The notes under the pieces were generated by a model. The model worked only from the letters and a program-made list of their open reading frames with translations. It had not been told where the DNA came from and did no database searches. The position numbers and the translations under genes were made by a program. DNA of 51,688 nucleotides from Oscillospiraceae bacterium (GTDB lineage Bacteria; Bacillota; Clostridia; Oscillospirales; Oscillospiraceae), in NCBI GenBank assembly GCA_017502265.1, contig JAFVVI010000001.1:1-51688 (forward strand). Direction: 5' to 3'. Below, piece after piece: positions 47,724 through 51,026 of this stretch; the first letter of the stretch is position 1; each line of letters begins with the position of its first letter.

Positions 47724-49061
47724 TCAGACCTCCAGTCGGCGGGTGGATTTTGCCATATGCCATGCGCTGTAGGCGGCTGTGAGCAGCTCCGTCAGGAGCA
47801 TGGCGTACCAGATGCTGTCCGCACCGGCCACGGCGGGGAGCACCAGAATGAGGGCGCCGCTGATGACCACGCCCCGGGCCAGCGATGCGGTCATGGCGAG
47901 GTTCGCCTGCATCATGGCCTGAAAATAATAGGTGGCGAAGACATTGAAGGGCAGCAGCAGGAAGGAAACGCCGTAGATGCGCAGGATCGCCGGAGCGATT
48001 TCGGCCACGGCAGGGGTGGGCGTCATGAAAAAGTTCAGGATCTGCTCCGGGAACAGCAGCATCACCGCCGTCCAGAAGACGCCCATGACCGCGCTTGTCG
48101 CCAAGCCGTATTTCAGGCACCGGCGGATGCGGTCCGGCTGGCCCGCGCCGTAATTCTGGGAGATGATGGGCTGGGCCGCCTGTCCCGCGCCGTAGGCGAG
48201 GCACTGGGCAAAGGGCATGACCTGCGCGAGAACGCCGTAGACCGACAGGGCGTCGGAGCCCAGATGGCCCATGATCTGCCGGTTGAAGAGGATGCCGATG
48301 ATGCCCATGGCGAGGTCGGTGACGGCGGTGGAGCAGCCGTTGAGGGTGATGGCGCCGAGCTTTCGCAGGACACCCGTGGGCCGGACAAGGCGCAGGGTAT
48401 TTTTCTTCCCGAAAAAGTGGAAGAGCATGACGAAGATGCCGACGTACTGCCCCGCTGCCGTGGCAAGGCCCGCGCCGGCGATGCCCATATCCAGCACAAA
48501 AACGCAGACATAGTCGCCCACGCAGTTGAAGGCACCCCCCGCCAGCACCGCAGCGGTGGCGAGGTCGGGATTGCCGTCGTTTCGCAGGTAGGCGGACAGG
48601 ATGTTGCTGAAGACACAGCAGGGAATGGCAAAGAGGATGGGCTTCAGGTACAGCTTCGCAAGGTGCAGCATTTCCTCATCCGCGCCGAAGAAGCAAAACA
48701 GCTCCTCCTGAAATACGCCGATGACCACCATAGCGGCGGTGGAGAGGGCCACGCCGTAGAGCAGGGACAGGGTGAAATATTCCTGCGCCTCCTCTTCCCT
48801 GCCGCTTCCCCGGCAGGCGGCGAAGAGCACCGAGCCGCCGATGCCCGCGAGCAGTCCCAGACAGAAGATGATGCTCCACAGGGGGCTGAACACCGCCAGC
48901 GCCGCGCTGCCGATGGGGCCGTGGTACTGGCCCACCATCATGGCGTCCACCACACCGAAGATCGATGCCACCATGGCGCTGCCCGAGGCGGCAGCCAGAT
49001 ATTTGAAATAAATGGGGCGGATATCGCCCCGAAGCAAGTCCATAGAGTCTTTCGCGCGCAA
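47724..49061 (-). CDS. MATE-family multidrug/Na+ antiporter
   Basis: 445 residues with twelve hydrophobic segments in two homologous halves. FGVVDAMMVGQYHGPIGSAA in the first half and GAGQAAQPIISQNYGAGQ in the second are MATE hallmarks; the FNVFATYYFQAMMQA segment is typical of the DinF/NorM-like clostridial group. The TTG at 49061 has GGAGGG 11 bases upstream; an ATG at 49043 is the alternative start. It is first in the operon with cyclase and VOC genes. The TipAS-type regulator upstream on the same strand may control it. Confidence 0.88.
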   Translation of the reverse strand: MRAKDSMDLLRGDIRPIYFKYLAAASGSAMVASIFGVVDAMMVGQYHGPIGSAALAVFSPLWSIIFCLGLLAGIGGSVLFAACRGSGREEEAQEYFTLSLLYGVALSTAAMVVIGVFQEELFCFFGADEEMLHLAKLYLKPILFAIPCCVFSNILSAYLRNDGNPDLATAAVLAGGAFNCVGDYVCVFVLDMGIAGAGLATAAGQYVGIFVMLFHFFGKKNTLRLVRPTGVLRKLGAITLNGCSTAVTDLAMGIIGILFNRQIMGHLGSDALSVYGVLAQVMPFAQCLAYGAGQAAQPIISQNYGAGQPDRIRRCLKYGLATSAVMGVFWTAVMLLFPEQILNFFMTPTPAVAEIAPAILRIYGVSFLLLPFNVFATYYFQAMMQANLAMTASLARGVVISGALILVLPAVAGADSIWYAMLLTELLTAAYSAWHMAKSTRRLEV

Positions 49062-49146
49062 GGGTCAGGCTCCCTCCTTTTGGATTTCTACCGCTATTTT
49101 AGCGTTTCCGGAGAGATTTGTAAACAGGCTTGGCGGCAAAAAAGAA

Positions 49147-49169
49147 AGGGGGAAGCATCGCTTCCCCCT
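49147..49169. terminator. Left copy of the GGGGGAAGC hairpin flanking repeat R1
   Basis: A 10-base stem AGGGGGAAGC / GCTTCCCCCT with loop ATC. It is identical to 49372-49394. On the minus strand it is followed by TTTCTTTTTT. Confidence 0.75.
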
Positions 49170-49339
49170 CAGACTGTCAAAAAAGCCTCGCAGAGTTTGC
49201 CGCGTCAGCGGCAAATAGAATCAAAATCATTTTCTGTCGGGGCGTGTACCTGACAGAAAATACTTCTCAGGCTGCAAGTGTGCGAGTTGTGCGCCCTTGG
49301 CGCACAAGGAGTGCGCGCAGCAGACTGCAAAAAACTGGC
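49170..49339. repeat. 170-bp dispersed repeat, copy R1
   Basis: Matches 50285-50454 with about 5 differences in 170 bases, same orientation. Internal structure: TTTGCCGC-GTCA-GCGGCAAA (about 49197-49216), ATTTTCTGTC/GACAGAAAAT (10-base inverted repeat, 49229-49261) and GTGCGCC-CTT-GGCGCAC (about 49289-49305). There is no coding capacity beyond short chance frames. Confidence 0.85.
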
Positions 49340-49371
49340 AAAAAAGGCCAGAGGCCTTTTTCGCCAAGCTA
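49340..49371. other. Extra hairpin between repeat R1 and its right flanking terminator
   Basis: AAAAAGGCC-AGA-GGCCTTTTT (49341-49361) extended outward by TGGC/GCCA. It is absent next to copy R2, where the flanking terminator follows the repeat after two bases. Confidence 0.6.
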
Positions 49372-49394
49372 AGGGGGAAGCATCGCTTCCCCCT
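49372..49394 (-). terminator. Right copy of the GGGGGAAGC hairpin, end of the MerR gene
   Basis: Same 23 bases as 49147-49169, located 17 bases after the MerR stop on the minus strand. On the plus strand it is followed by TTT. Confidence 0.75.
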
Positions 49395-49410
49395 TTCCGG
49401 ATGGGTTTGA

Positions 49411-50166
49411 TCAGATCCAGCGCTGGACGGCGTCGCAGAGCAGCTGGGCGCAGCCCTCCACGGCCCGGTCGTAATAGGCCGTGAACCGCCCGTCGGCGAC
49501 GTACATCATGGCGATGCCCCGGTGCATCTGGGCAGAATATTTGGGATTTGCCAACGTCAGCCACTGTCTGTGGAGCTGGGCGATTTCCTTTGCTTCCTCA
49601 CTGTCTGCGCCGGCATTCGCCTTCACAGCGGACTCCAGACGGCTGAGGATCTCAGCCTCCAGCGTCTGCCACCGGGCAAATTCCTCCTCGGTCAGGTGCA
49701 TCATCTGCCGGTTGGCGGCGTCCACCTGTTCCCTGCCGTATTTCTGCCGGGCTTCGGCGCCGTATTTGTCTTCGTTTTCCCGGAGCAGTTCTTCTTTCAA
49801 TGCCCGGAATTTTTCTCTGTCGCTCATCGTTTCTTCTCCTTTCAAGTGTCGGATGGTCTGCTGCACCGTCCGGATCAGCGCCTCGGTCTGACTTTTCCGA
49901 TCCTCCAGTGCCTGCAGGTGCTCCTCCATGGCCGTCAGCATATCGAAATCCTTTTCATACAGGATTTTCTGAATGGTTTTCAGCTCGAAGCCCCGCTGGC
50001 GGTAGAAGAGGATCTGCTGCAGCAGCATCACCTTTTCCGCCCCGTAGCAGCGGTAGCCGCCCTCCGTCACCCGGTCGGGCTTCAGCAGGCCGATCTCGTC
50101 GTAATAGCGCAGTGTGCGGGTGCTGACCCCCGCCAGCCGGGACAGCTCCCGGATGCCGTATTCCAT
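49411..50166 (-). CDS. MerR-family regulator with TipAS antibiotic-binding domain
   Basis: 251 residues starting MEYGIRELSRLAGVSTRTLR, the MerR winged helix, with RRYYDEIGLL-type continuation, a dimerisation coiled coil (about 80-115) and a C-terminal helical domain (about 145-251, with MMHLTEEEFARWQTLEAEIL and YSAQMHRGIAMMYVADGRF) matching TipAS, the fold that binds thiopeptides and other drugs. GGAGGTGAGTCC precedes the start. It is probably autoregulated and may activate the downstream MATE gene. Confidence 0.88.
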   Translation of the reverse strand: MEYGIRELSRLAGVSTRTLRYYDEIGLLKPDRVTEGGYRCYGAEKVMLLQQILFYRQRGFELKTIQKILYEKDFDMLTAMEEHLQALEDRKSQTEALIRTVQQTIRHLKGEETMSDREKFRALKEELLRENEDKYGAEARQKYGREQVDAANRQMMHLTEEEFARWQTLEAEILSRLESAVKANAGADSEEAKEIAQLHRQWLTLANPKYSAQMHRGIAMMYVADGRFTAYYDRAVEGCAQLLCDAVQRWI

Positions 50167-50185
50167 GGACTCACCTCCTGAGAAC

Positions 50186-50216
50186 AGGATAACACTTGAC
50201 GCCGCGTCAATGTCAA
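50186..50216 (-). promoter_or_regulatory. MerR-type promoter with 19-base spacer and central palindrome
   Basis: On the minus strand, TTGACA (50216-50211) and TATCCT (50191-50186) are 19 bases apart, the overlong spacing MerR activators correct. The spacer contains the perfect palindrome TTGACGC-G-GCGTCAA (50210-50196). Confidence 0.85.
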
Positions 50217-50260
50217 GGACTTTTTTCATTTTATTTCTTTACCGGCTGTCTGTCAATAAA

Positions 50261-50284
50261 AAACCACGGCTTTCGCCGTGGTTT
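50261..50284. terminator. Left copy of the ACCACGGC hairpin flanking repeat R2
   Basis: A 10-base stem AAACCACGGC / GCCGTGGTTT with loop TTTC. It is identical to 50457-50480. On the minus strand it is followed by TTTTATTG. Confidence 0.8.
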
Positions 50285-50454
50285 CAGGCTGTAGAAAAAG
50301 CCTCGCAGAGTTTGCCGCGTCAGCAGCAAATAAAATCAAAATCATTTTCTGTCGGGGCGTGTACCTGACAGAAAATACTTCTCAGGCTGCAAGTGTGCGA
50401 GTTGTGCGCCCTTGGCGCACAAGGAGTGCGCGCAGCAGACTGCAAAAAACTGGC
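50285..50454. repeat. 170-bp dispersed repeat, copy R2
   Basis: Second copy of the repeat at 49170-49339. The first internal stem has one change (GCAGCAAA), which is a C-A mismatch on the plus strand but a G-U pair if the minus strand is the RNA. Confidence 0.85.
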
Positions 50455-50456
50455 GA

Positions 50457-50480
50457 AAACCACGGCTTTCGCCGTGGTTT
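50457..50480. terminator. Right copy of the ACCACGGC hairpin, end of the rubredoxin gene
   Basis: Same 24 bases as 50261-50284, 8 bases after the rubredoxin stop on the minus strand. On the plus strand it is followed by TTTTTCGG. Confidence 0.8.
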
Positions 50481-50487
50481 TTTTCGG

Positions 50488-50643
50488 TTATTCAGCGGAG
50501 AAATTGTCCTTGTCCACTGCGCAGAGGGGGCACTCGAAGTCGTCGGGGAGATCCTCCCACTTGGTGCCGGGGGCAATGCCGCCCTCGGGGTAGCCCTGAG
50601 TCTCGTCGTATTCCCAGCCGCAAACGTCGCAAATATATTTCAT
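50488..50643 (-). CDS. Rubredoxin
   Basis: 51 residues, MKYICDVCGWEYDETQG at the start and FECPLCAVDKDNF near the end. The two CxxC pairs bind one iron; length and spacing are those of a classical rubredoxin. It is a small cytoplasmic electron carrier, the usual donor to superoxide reductase and rubrerythrin in anaerobes. GGAGGTAATCACT precedes the start. Its upstream region is the minus-strand half of dispersed element copy B: promoter TTTACA/TATGAT at 50795-50767, then a terminator-like hairpin at 50756-50732. Confidence 0.95.
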   Translation of the reverse strand: MKYICDVCGWEYDETQGYPEGGIAPGTKWEDLPDDFECPLCAVDKDNFSAE

Positions 50644-50731
50644 AGTGATTACCTCCGTGTGTATTTTTTGTATTTTTGATGGCTTTATACTACCACGGAA
50701 AGCGAAATCATTCTGTGACTTTCTCACAAAC

Positions 50732-51026
50732 AAAAAGCGGCGGCACGCAGGCCGCCCAACATAAACATCATATCACATCTGAATGCCTCTGTAAATGCTC
50801 CGTTTCTCCAAACTTTTGCCCATTCTTTTATGGAAGATCCCATCTTGTAAAATCCACAGAAGCGCTGTAATATGAAAGTACCACAAAGGAGTGAGTCCAA
50901 TGTACAAGTAAATCTCTAAACTACAGAAAGAGAGGTTACGTAAAATGCTGGAGCCCAACAACTGCATGAAGTGACCCCTGATGCGTCGGTATCATTCGCC
51001 GGCAAAATCAGGGGTCACTTCTTTTG
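50732..51026. repeat. Copy B of the roughly 295-bp bidirectional element (copy A at 17308)
   Basis: Same order of blocks as 17308-17602. Minus strand: TTTACA (50795-50790) and TATGAT (50772-50767), spacer 17, then hairpin GGCGGC-CTGCGT-GCCGCC (50756-50739) and a GCTTTTTG tail, upstream of rubredoxin. Plus strand: promoter TTGTAA (50845-50850) and TAATAT (50868-50873), spacer 17. Confidence 0.75.
50880..51026 (+). ncRNA. Putative small RNA with two mini-ORFs (copy B)
   Basis: About 145 nt, ending at a 14-base terminator stem AAGTGACCCCTGAT / ATCAGGGGTCACTT (50969-50982 with 51007-51020) and CTTTTG. It contains AAAGGAG before ATG TAC AAG TAA (50900-50911, MYK) and GAGAGG before ATG...TGA (50945-50974, MLEPNNCMK). 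The second stop lies in the terminator's left arm. Confidence 0.6.

Follow-up and report, generated by a model that had tools for sequence, protein, structure and literature searches.

The window, the 51,688-nucleotide stretch of Oscillospiraceae DNA that was analyzed, contains two copies (R1 and R2) of a repeat, each of which lies between two identical hairpins and just behind an open reading frame (Table 1). The two copies, which had been placed at 49170-49339 and 50285-50454 with an identity of about 97%, are indeed present and are 97% identical over 176 nt. The identical hairpins foreseen on either side of R1 were found at 49147-49169 and 49372-49394; those around R2 are identical as well, as had been proposed, but measure 25 nt and not 24. 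The repeat had also been described as 170 bp long, and this length has to be corrected, as R1 reaches 49371, is 202 nt long, and has its left end repeated in inverted orientation at the right. The ends of the element, which is about 203 nt long, are thus terminal inverted repeats (CAGnnTGTCnAAAAA). R1 and R2 are the only copies in the window's genome (1.41 Mb, 82% complete). Further, a contig of another MAG (G107:C86, L293) is 99.9% identical to the window and has both copies, which shows that R1 and R2 are not an artefact of one assembly. This contig sits in a MAG of another species, where it is probably mis-binned or a contaminant, and its source may be the window's own species. No empty site was found for R1 or R2, the only close orthologue (in G107) having both copies.

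Table 1. Features of the R1 and R2 region, in coordinates of the window
Feature	Coordinates	Strand	Remarks
Left target hairpin, R1	49147-49169	.	23-nt target duplication; same as 49372-49394
R1, full-length element, 202 nt	49170-49371	+	Left end CAGACTGTCAAAAAAG; right end inverted
R1 left terminal inverted repeat	49170-49185	+	Consensus CAG..TGTCaAAAAAG (157 copies); same end type on IS1182-family insertion sequences
R1 structured core	49185-49326	+	Covariance-model match; covariation
R1 right terminal inverted repeat	49358-49371	-	Inverted copy of left end
Right target hairpin, R1	49372-49394	.	Same as 49147-49169
Putative MerR-like regulator, open reading frame between R1 and R2	49411-50229	-	Named by reading the sequence; R1 just behind its stop
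Left target hairpin, R2	50260-50284	.	25 nt; same as 50456-50480
R2, right-truncated copy	50285-50455	+	About 31 nt fewer than R1, including the right terminal repeat
R2 structured core	50300-50441		Covariance-model match
Right target hairpin, R2	50456-50480	.	Same as 50260-50284
Putative rubredoxin-like protein, open reading frame	50488-50733	-	Named by reading the sequence; R2 just behind its stop

A search of 60 genomes, in each of which no more than 14 candidates were scored, gave matches to the repeat in 15, the window's own included, and nine other genomes of the genus gave at least 10-19 matches each, some of the copies being in two pieces. An exact 20-nt pattern of the element was present in 28 of the 136 genomes of the genus, which is an undercount, as expected of exact-match searches (genomes that contain the element and were missed by the pattern include G007, G021, and G035). 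A scan of named genomes returned at least 120 stretches with the repeat; among the matches listed, most were in Oscillospiraceae bins, and Papillibacter cinnamivorans was represented too. We note that contigs of MAGs often stop in or beside the element (e.g. L046, L049, and L054-L057), and copy numbers from such assemblies are therefore probably too low. By script, 217 nonredundant left ends were collected from 322 loci, of which 60 were dropped because they had no right end or less than 60 nt beyond, leaving 157 copies from Faecousia and related Clostridia; these include orthologues in close species (L084/L251 and L022/L239) and one near-palindromic copy (L197) that was counted on both strands. 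The element is 201-207 nt long in 114 of the 157 copies and 160-310 nt long in the others.

Paired flanks, which had been predicted for copies at other loci, proved to be the rule, as 120 of the 157 copies stand between direct repeats of 15-40 nt. A hairpin lies inside the direct repeat in 117 of these 120 cases, the centers of hairpin and repeat are no more than 1 nt apart in 115 of these, and the length of the direct repeat rises with that of the hairpin (Spearman 0.65). With a 2-nt trim allowed for repeats and random windows alike, 116 of the 120 long direct repeats were at least 70% self-complementary about their center, compared with 180 of 20,000 random windows. This figure and the many matches in other genomes of the genus show that the pattern is not due to chance. 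The duplicated hairpins vary in sequence from site to site. Their foot is A/T-rich, the first letter of the repeat being A in 88 and the last letter T in 82 of 117. Whole-hairpin flanks were also seen by eye at two loci from other genera of the family (L427 and L435). Rough calling of open reading frames at 105 sites gave 38 convergent, 44 co-directional, 16 divergent, and 7 unclear arrangements of the neighboring genes, with an intragenic position possible for 23 sites. Overall, insertion is precise and takes place in palindromes, which are for the most part terminator-like hairpins, and the majority of insertions have one whole hairpin on each side.

The two copies of the hairpin are identical in 59 of the 117 pairs and differ at 1-7 places in the remainder. 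Between the copies, 3 base pairs are compensated, 55 are intact in one copy only, and 8 fall into neither class, which indicates that the differences mostly represent decay; selection acting on the hairpin copies through compensatory change was rejected on the same counts. The compensated base pairs, seen at L084, L268, and L279, keep the stem in each copy.

The 37 copies with no long direct repeat are heterogeneous. In 19 of them a hairpin lies directly against the left end, in 24 against the right end, and in 14 against both; for a single side, random positions gave 146 of 3,000. At L013, L058, L061, and L239, the same hairpin is present on both sides with an indel between the copies, a situation that our ungapped test misses. 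Two different hairpins are found at the ends of L073, L083, L194, L211, and L253, which fits recombination between copies. Finally, L010, L070, L101, L074, and L196 have repeats of 4-10 nt only, in one arm or off the hairpin, implying that the mover can also make short duplications. Duplication of the whole hairpin is thus the usual but not the sole outcome of insertion.

To look for empty sites, a sequence with a single hairpin between the two flanks was assembled for each of five insertions in one genome (G020) and compared with 136 genomes, with 2 candidates scored per genome, so that a missing match means little. Uninterrupted matches in other species were obtained for three of the five: L009 is empty in G063, L085 in G063 and G140, and L084 in G140 and G143 (the first match in G143 being cut by a contig end). 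In each of the five alignments, from three genomes, the empty allele has one hairpin and lacks both the element and the second hairpin. The G140 and G143 sites do not differ over the stretch displayed and may thus be one source. The L084 site is filled in G063 (L251) and in G142 (L385), indicating that this insertion is older, and L022 is filled in G142 also; L086 gave no match spanning the junction among the 2 candidates scored in each of the 136 genomes. Insertion was accordingly accompanied by duplication of the whole hairpin. Hence, the original prediction, in which a mobile element enters terminators and the entire hairpin is duplicated, is borne out, both by hairpins that differ between sites and by orthologous empty sites with a single hairpin at three insertions. 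The outcomes that would have spoken against it, a majority of copies with no paired hairpins or empty sites with two hairpins, were looked for among copies other than R1 and R2 and did not occur.

The ends of the element resemble those of insertion sequences (ISs) of the IS1182 family. Transposases of this family (NF033551) were detected in 42 of the 136 genomes of the genus, 17 of them above the family's cut-off, and no match was detected in the window's own, 82% complete genome. By a hand count, a family match is present in 12 of the 28 genomes with the exact pattern of the element and in 30 of the 108 others, a weak co-occurrence. The 5′ ends of the ISs in the genus are mostly CAGnnTGTCnAAAAA(G or C), and their 3′ ends consist of CAGnn(T or C)GT, an A-rich stretch, and CCC; the short element has AAAAAG at its left and AAAnCCC at its right end and so matches the two IS ends in kind. 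Terminal inverted repeats of one type are therefore common to the element and the IS1182-family ISs, and target choice and target duplication are alike in the element and the CAG-ended ISs. At 202 nt, the element is too short for a transposase, the open frames of six ISs being 488-507 amino acids long and that of L111, a gene with an internal stop, 433. The similarity of element and ISs is confined to the ends, with interior matches at chance level, from which it follows that the element is not a simple internal deletion of an IS. The lack of an IS-derived interior is not decisive because many MITEs share with their IS only the ends.

For nine ISs of the genus, both ends and their flanks could be inspected by eye. 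The same hairpin stands at both outer ends of five (L111, L112, where it has diverged, L150, L153, and L156), and two different hairpins stand at the ends of three (L148, L149, and L168). In the ninth (L154), flanking copies of about 40 nt near 1390 and 2904 are inverted and not direct. L156 is a composite with nested copies of the IS end on its left side (1166-1403); IS1272 has likewise been reported with left ends in tandem (PMC5678879).

The ends and repeats of ISs across the phylum were obtained by script from IS copies compared in pairs; G090 and G098, with no match between their loci, and G128 and G022, with both loci at the same place, were dropped from the comparison. Outside the genus, ISs with CAG-type ends have hairpin direct repeats of 16-35 nt at 16 of 17 loci in six genomes (the end in G179 has G as its first letter, GAG), and the one locus without such a repeat, L408, seems to reflect a boundary that the script misplaced. 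ISs with other ends have hairpin direct repeats at none of 23 loci in eleven genomes, where two chance repeats of 6 and 8 nt were noted; the ends are GGGG-like in nine of these genomes, CAGACTGTG in G392, and CAGGCTGTG in G339, and the G392 group has no duplication. In a tree of 26 transposases (one of 27, L366, was dropped, as it is shorter than 400 amino acids), the 13 CAG-ended proteins lie on one side of a branch with support of 100/100, at a split where, according to the program's warning, long branches meet; three of the five rows labeled "other" (L117, L157, and L158) are family members from the window's genus without an end assignment. Pfam domains DDE_Tnp_1_6, DUF772, and DDE_Tnp_1 were present in all three proteins searched. 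The ISs of the CAG clade thus have the same type of end as the element and mostly the same whole-hairpin flanks, and a transposase of the IS1182 clade is strongly suggested as the mover.

The interior of the element contains a strongly covarying core. In an alignment of 37 diverse copies over 221 columns, RNAalifold predicted 44 pairs, of which 28 have changes on both sides, and the covariance analysis that had been proposed for the core thus came out in favor of structure. Paired cells amount to 95.0%, compared with 82.0% in shuffled and 40.9-45.2% in slid alignments, and double-change cells to 217 compared with 15-34 when slid, a control that favors the structure because the latter was derived from the same alignment. 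Of the 7 pairs in the stem formed by columns 107-114 and 163-171, 6 have changes on both sides; one pair appears as G-U in 31 of the 37 copies and as A-U in the other 6, which suggests that the left-to-right strand is the constrained one. The third hairpin of the core (columns 126-150 of alignment A1) has many changes and stays palindromic.

Of 394 genomes from the order, 55 gave a match to a covariance model of the core in which the first hairpin was left out; the matches come from 24 of 168 genera, and many of those genomes have at least 8 copies. The same model found no core in 21 IS loci (best E 0.12). Rfam 15 had nothing at gathering score over the core in positions 48900-51000 of the window or at 17 further loci, and an Rfam search of the window at E values of up to 5 gave only matches far under the gathering scores; a known Rfam 15 RNA was therefore rejected as an identity for the core. 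At L443-L462, L429, and L442, from another family, the core occurs in many copies without clean terminal repeats and with further hairpins after it. By eye, 17 of 20 copies retrieved from family f7 have no terminal repeat left of the core, and remnants of terminal repeats are present at the other 3 (L449, L452, and L460). The core may be dispersed as an independent unit.

Taken together, we consider it highly probable that R1 and R2 are MITEs, non-autonomous DNA transposons, and that their ends are those which a single clade of DDE transposases in the IS1182 family recognizes. Recombination between terminators had been raised as an alternative. If this process, or gene conversion, spread the repeat along with its hairpins, it would produce copies and ISs with two different hairpins at their ends, and such cases exist (L045, L073, L083, L194, L211, and L253; L148, L149, and L168). 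However, most copies have the same hairpin on both sides and yet a different one from other copies, the element has terminal inverted repeats, and at three insertions the empty site has one hairpin and no element. Such recombination can explain at most the minority with two different hairpins, and as a general account it is very improbable. We find it harder still to credit that a short, ordinary duplication was made beside a hairpin and that the second hairpin was there beforehand or arose afterwards because a terminator was selected for. Copies with 4-10-nt duplications do exist, also in G002 beside whole-hairpin copies, but a single hairpin is seen in all five empty-site alignments (three genomes, three insertions), and in 59 of 117 pairs the hairpin copies do not differ.

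The transposon reading could also be right and the mover come from outside the IS1182 family, with an end shared by convergence, in keeping with the missing family match in the window's genome and the weak co-occurrence (12/28 versus 30/108). Nonetheless, this appears improbable given that both ends of the element match IS ends in kind (AAAAAG and AAAnCCC) and that, among the ISs examined, whole-hairpin duplication is seen with the CAG clade only. Somewhat less improbable, though still unlikely, is that the repeat is a functional RNA locus (e.g. a 3′-end regulatory RNA) with incidental mobility. The both-side changes in 28 of 44 pairs, the excess of paired cells over the slid control (95.0% versus 40.9-45.2%), and the occurrence of the core across the order (55 of 394 genomes) speak for such a function, whereas the many copies, their patchy occurrence between related species, and a mixed orientation relative to neighboring genes (by rough calling of open reading frames, 30 antisense and 14 sense among the 44 co-directional sites) speak against it. 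Group IIC introns insert behind terminator hairpins; an intron of this type was rejected, as positions 48900-51000 of the window gave no group II intron match and a target duplication is present. Replacement of the stem-loop in the manner of IS1272 was likewise rejected, as the hairpin here is present on both sides.

If the element is a MITE of this clade, the transposase of an IS would move it in trans. The target would be an extruded cruciform or, alternatively, a palindrome to which a symmetric dimer of the transposase binds. Each of the two opposed hairpins would be attacked at its 5′ foot by one of the element's two 3′ ends, and repair of the gaps would then copy the hairpin, which would in this way set the length of the target duplication. 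As a consequence, the upstream gene would keep its terminator, and the element would be shielded from transcription on both sides. A more far-reaching proposal, which we make tentatively and rate a little short of an even chance, is that the clade reads DNA shape and cuts the feet of extruded cruciforms, so that the hairpin dictates the duplication length and the host's terminator is copied, a built-in harmlessness, and that the MITE, as a passenger of the clade, contains a structured RNA or single-strand DNA from an undescribed family that is conserved across the order and may itself serve transposition.

The element is thus most probably a MITE of a hairpin-duplicating IS1182 clade; the targeting of stem-loops by the IS1182 family is already known. 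The results provide genome-scale evidence, with empty sites, for whole-hairpin duplication, which in the literature surveyed had been only a hypothetical branch of a model for this family. Among the ISs examined, the outcomes in which the hairpin is copied or not copied split along one branch of the transposase tree, and the mechanism can therefore be tested by comparing enzymes. The findings further suggest how such elements spread behind genes without breaking termination and point to an undescribed structured core that is repeated in many gut genomes.

The closest described system is IS1272/TnSha1, an IS1182-family element with 16-bp ends that targets stem-loops of varied sequence, several of them just behind genes, and deletes or replaces the stem-loop with no target duplication (Wan et al. 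2017, PMC5678879; Furi et al. 2016, PMC4923244). Its transposase belongs to the same family as those of the ISs studied here, although IS1272 itself is outside the tree of 26 proteins; IS1272 removes the stem-loop, whereas the element studied here has it intact on both sides. Some IS1182 members are said to target palindromes (Siguier et al. 2015, cited in PMC5678879 and PMC4923244), a point for which, according to Wan et al. (PMC5678879), detailed data had not been provided. Of the three pathways set out by Wan et al. in 2017 (PMC5678879), pathway b (Fig. 13 legend and Discussion) is a hypothetical duplication of the whole stem-loop, presented as a possible branch and not for IS1272; the element and its ISs, with 120 long duplications and empty sites, look like the outcome of that pathway. 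The original prediction knew of no described element with this behavior, which holds insofar as no report of whole-hairpin target duplication as an observation was found in the literature surveyed and does not hold for stem-loop targeting, already published for IS1272. The target duplications of IS1182-family members in ISfinder are variable, from 0 to 60 bp, which would fit, and curators may thus have seen cases.

With prokaryotic MITEs as characterized in PMC10969869, the element shares its short length, the lack of a transposase, terminal inverted repeats, direct repeats, and an intergenic preference; it differs in its target duplication, which is a whole hairpin of variable length, and in its covarying core. 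As far as the literature surveyed goes, ISs that target REP sequences (ISPpu9 and IS1111) also choose palindromic extragenic sites. REP-targeting ISs recognize particular repeat sequences. Unlike the targets of those ISs, the hairpins entered by the element described here have a shape, and not a sequence, in common.
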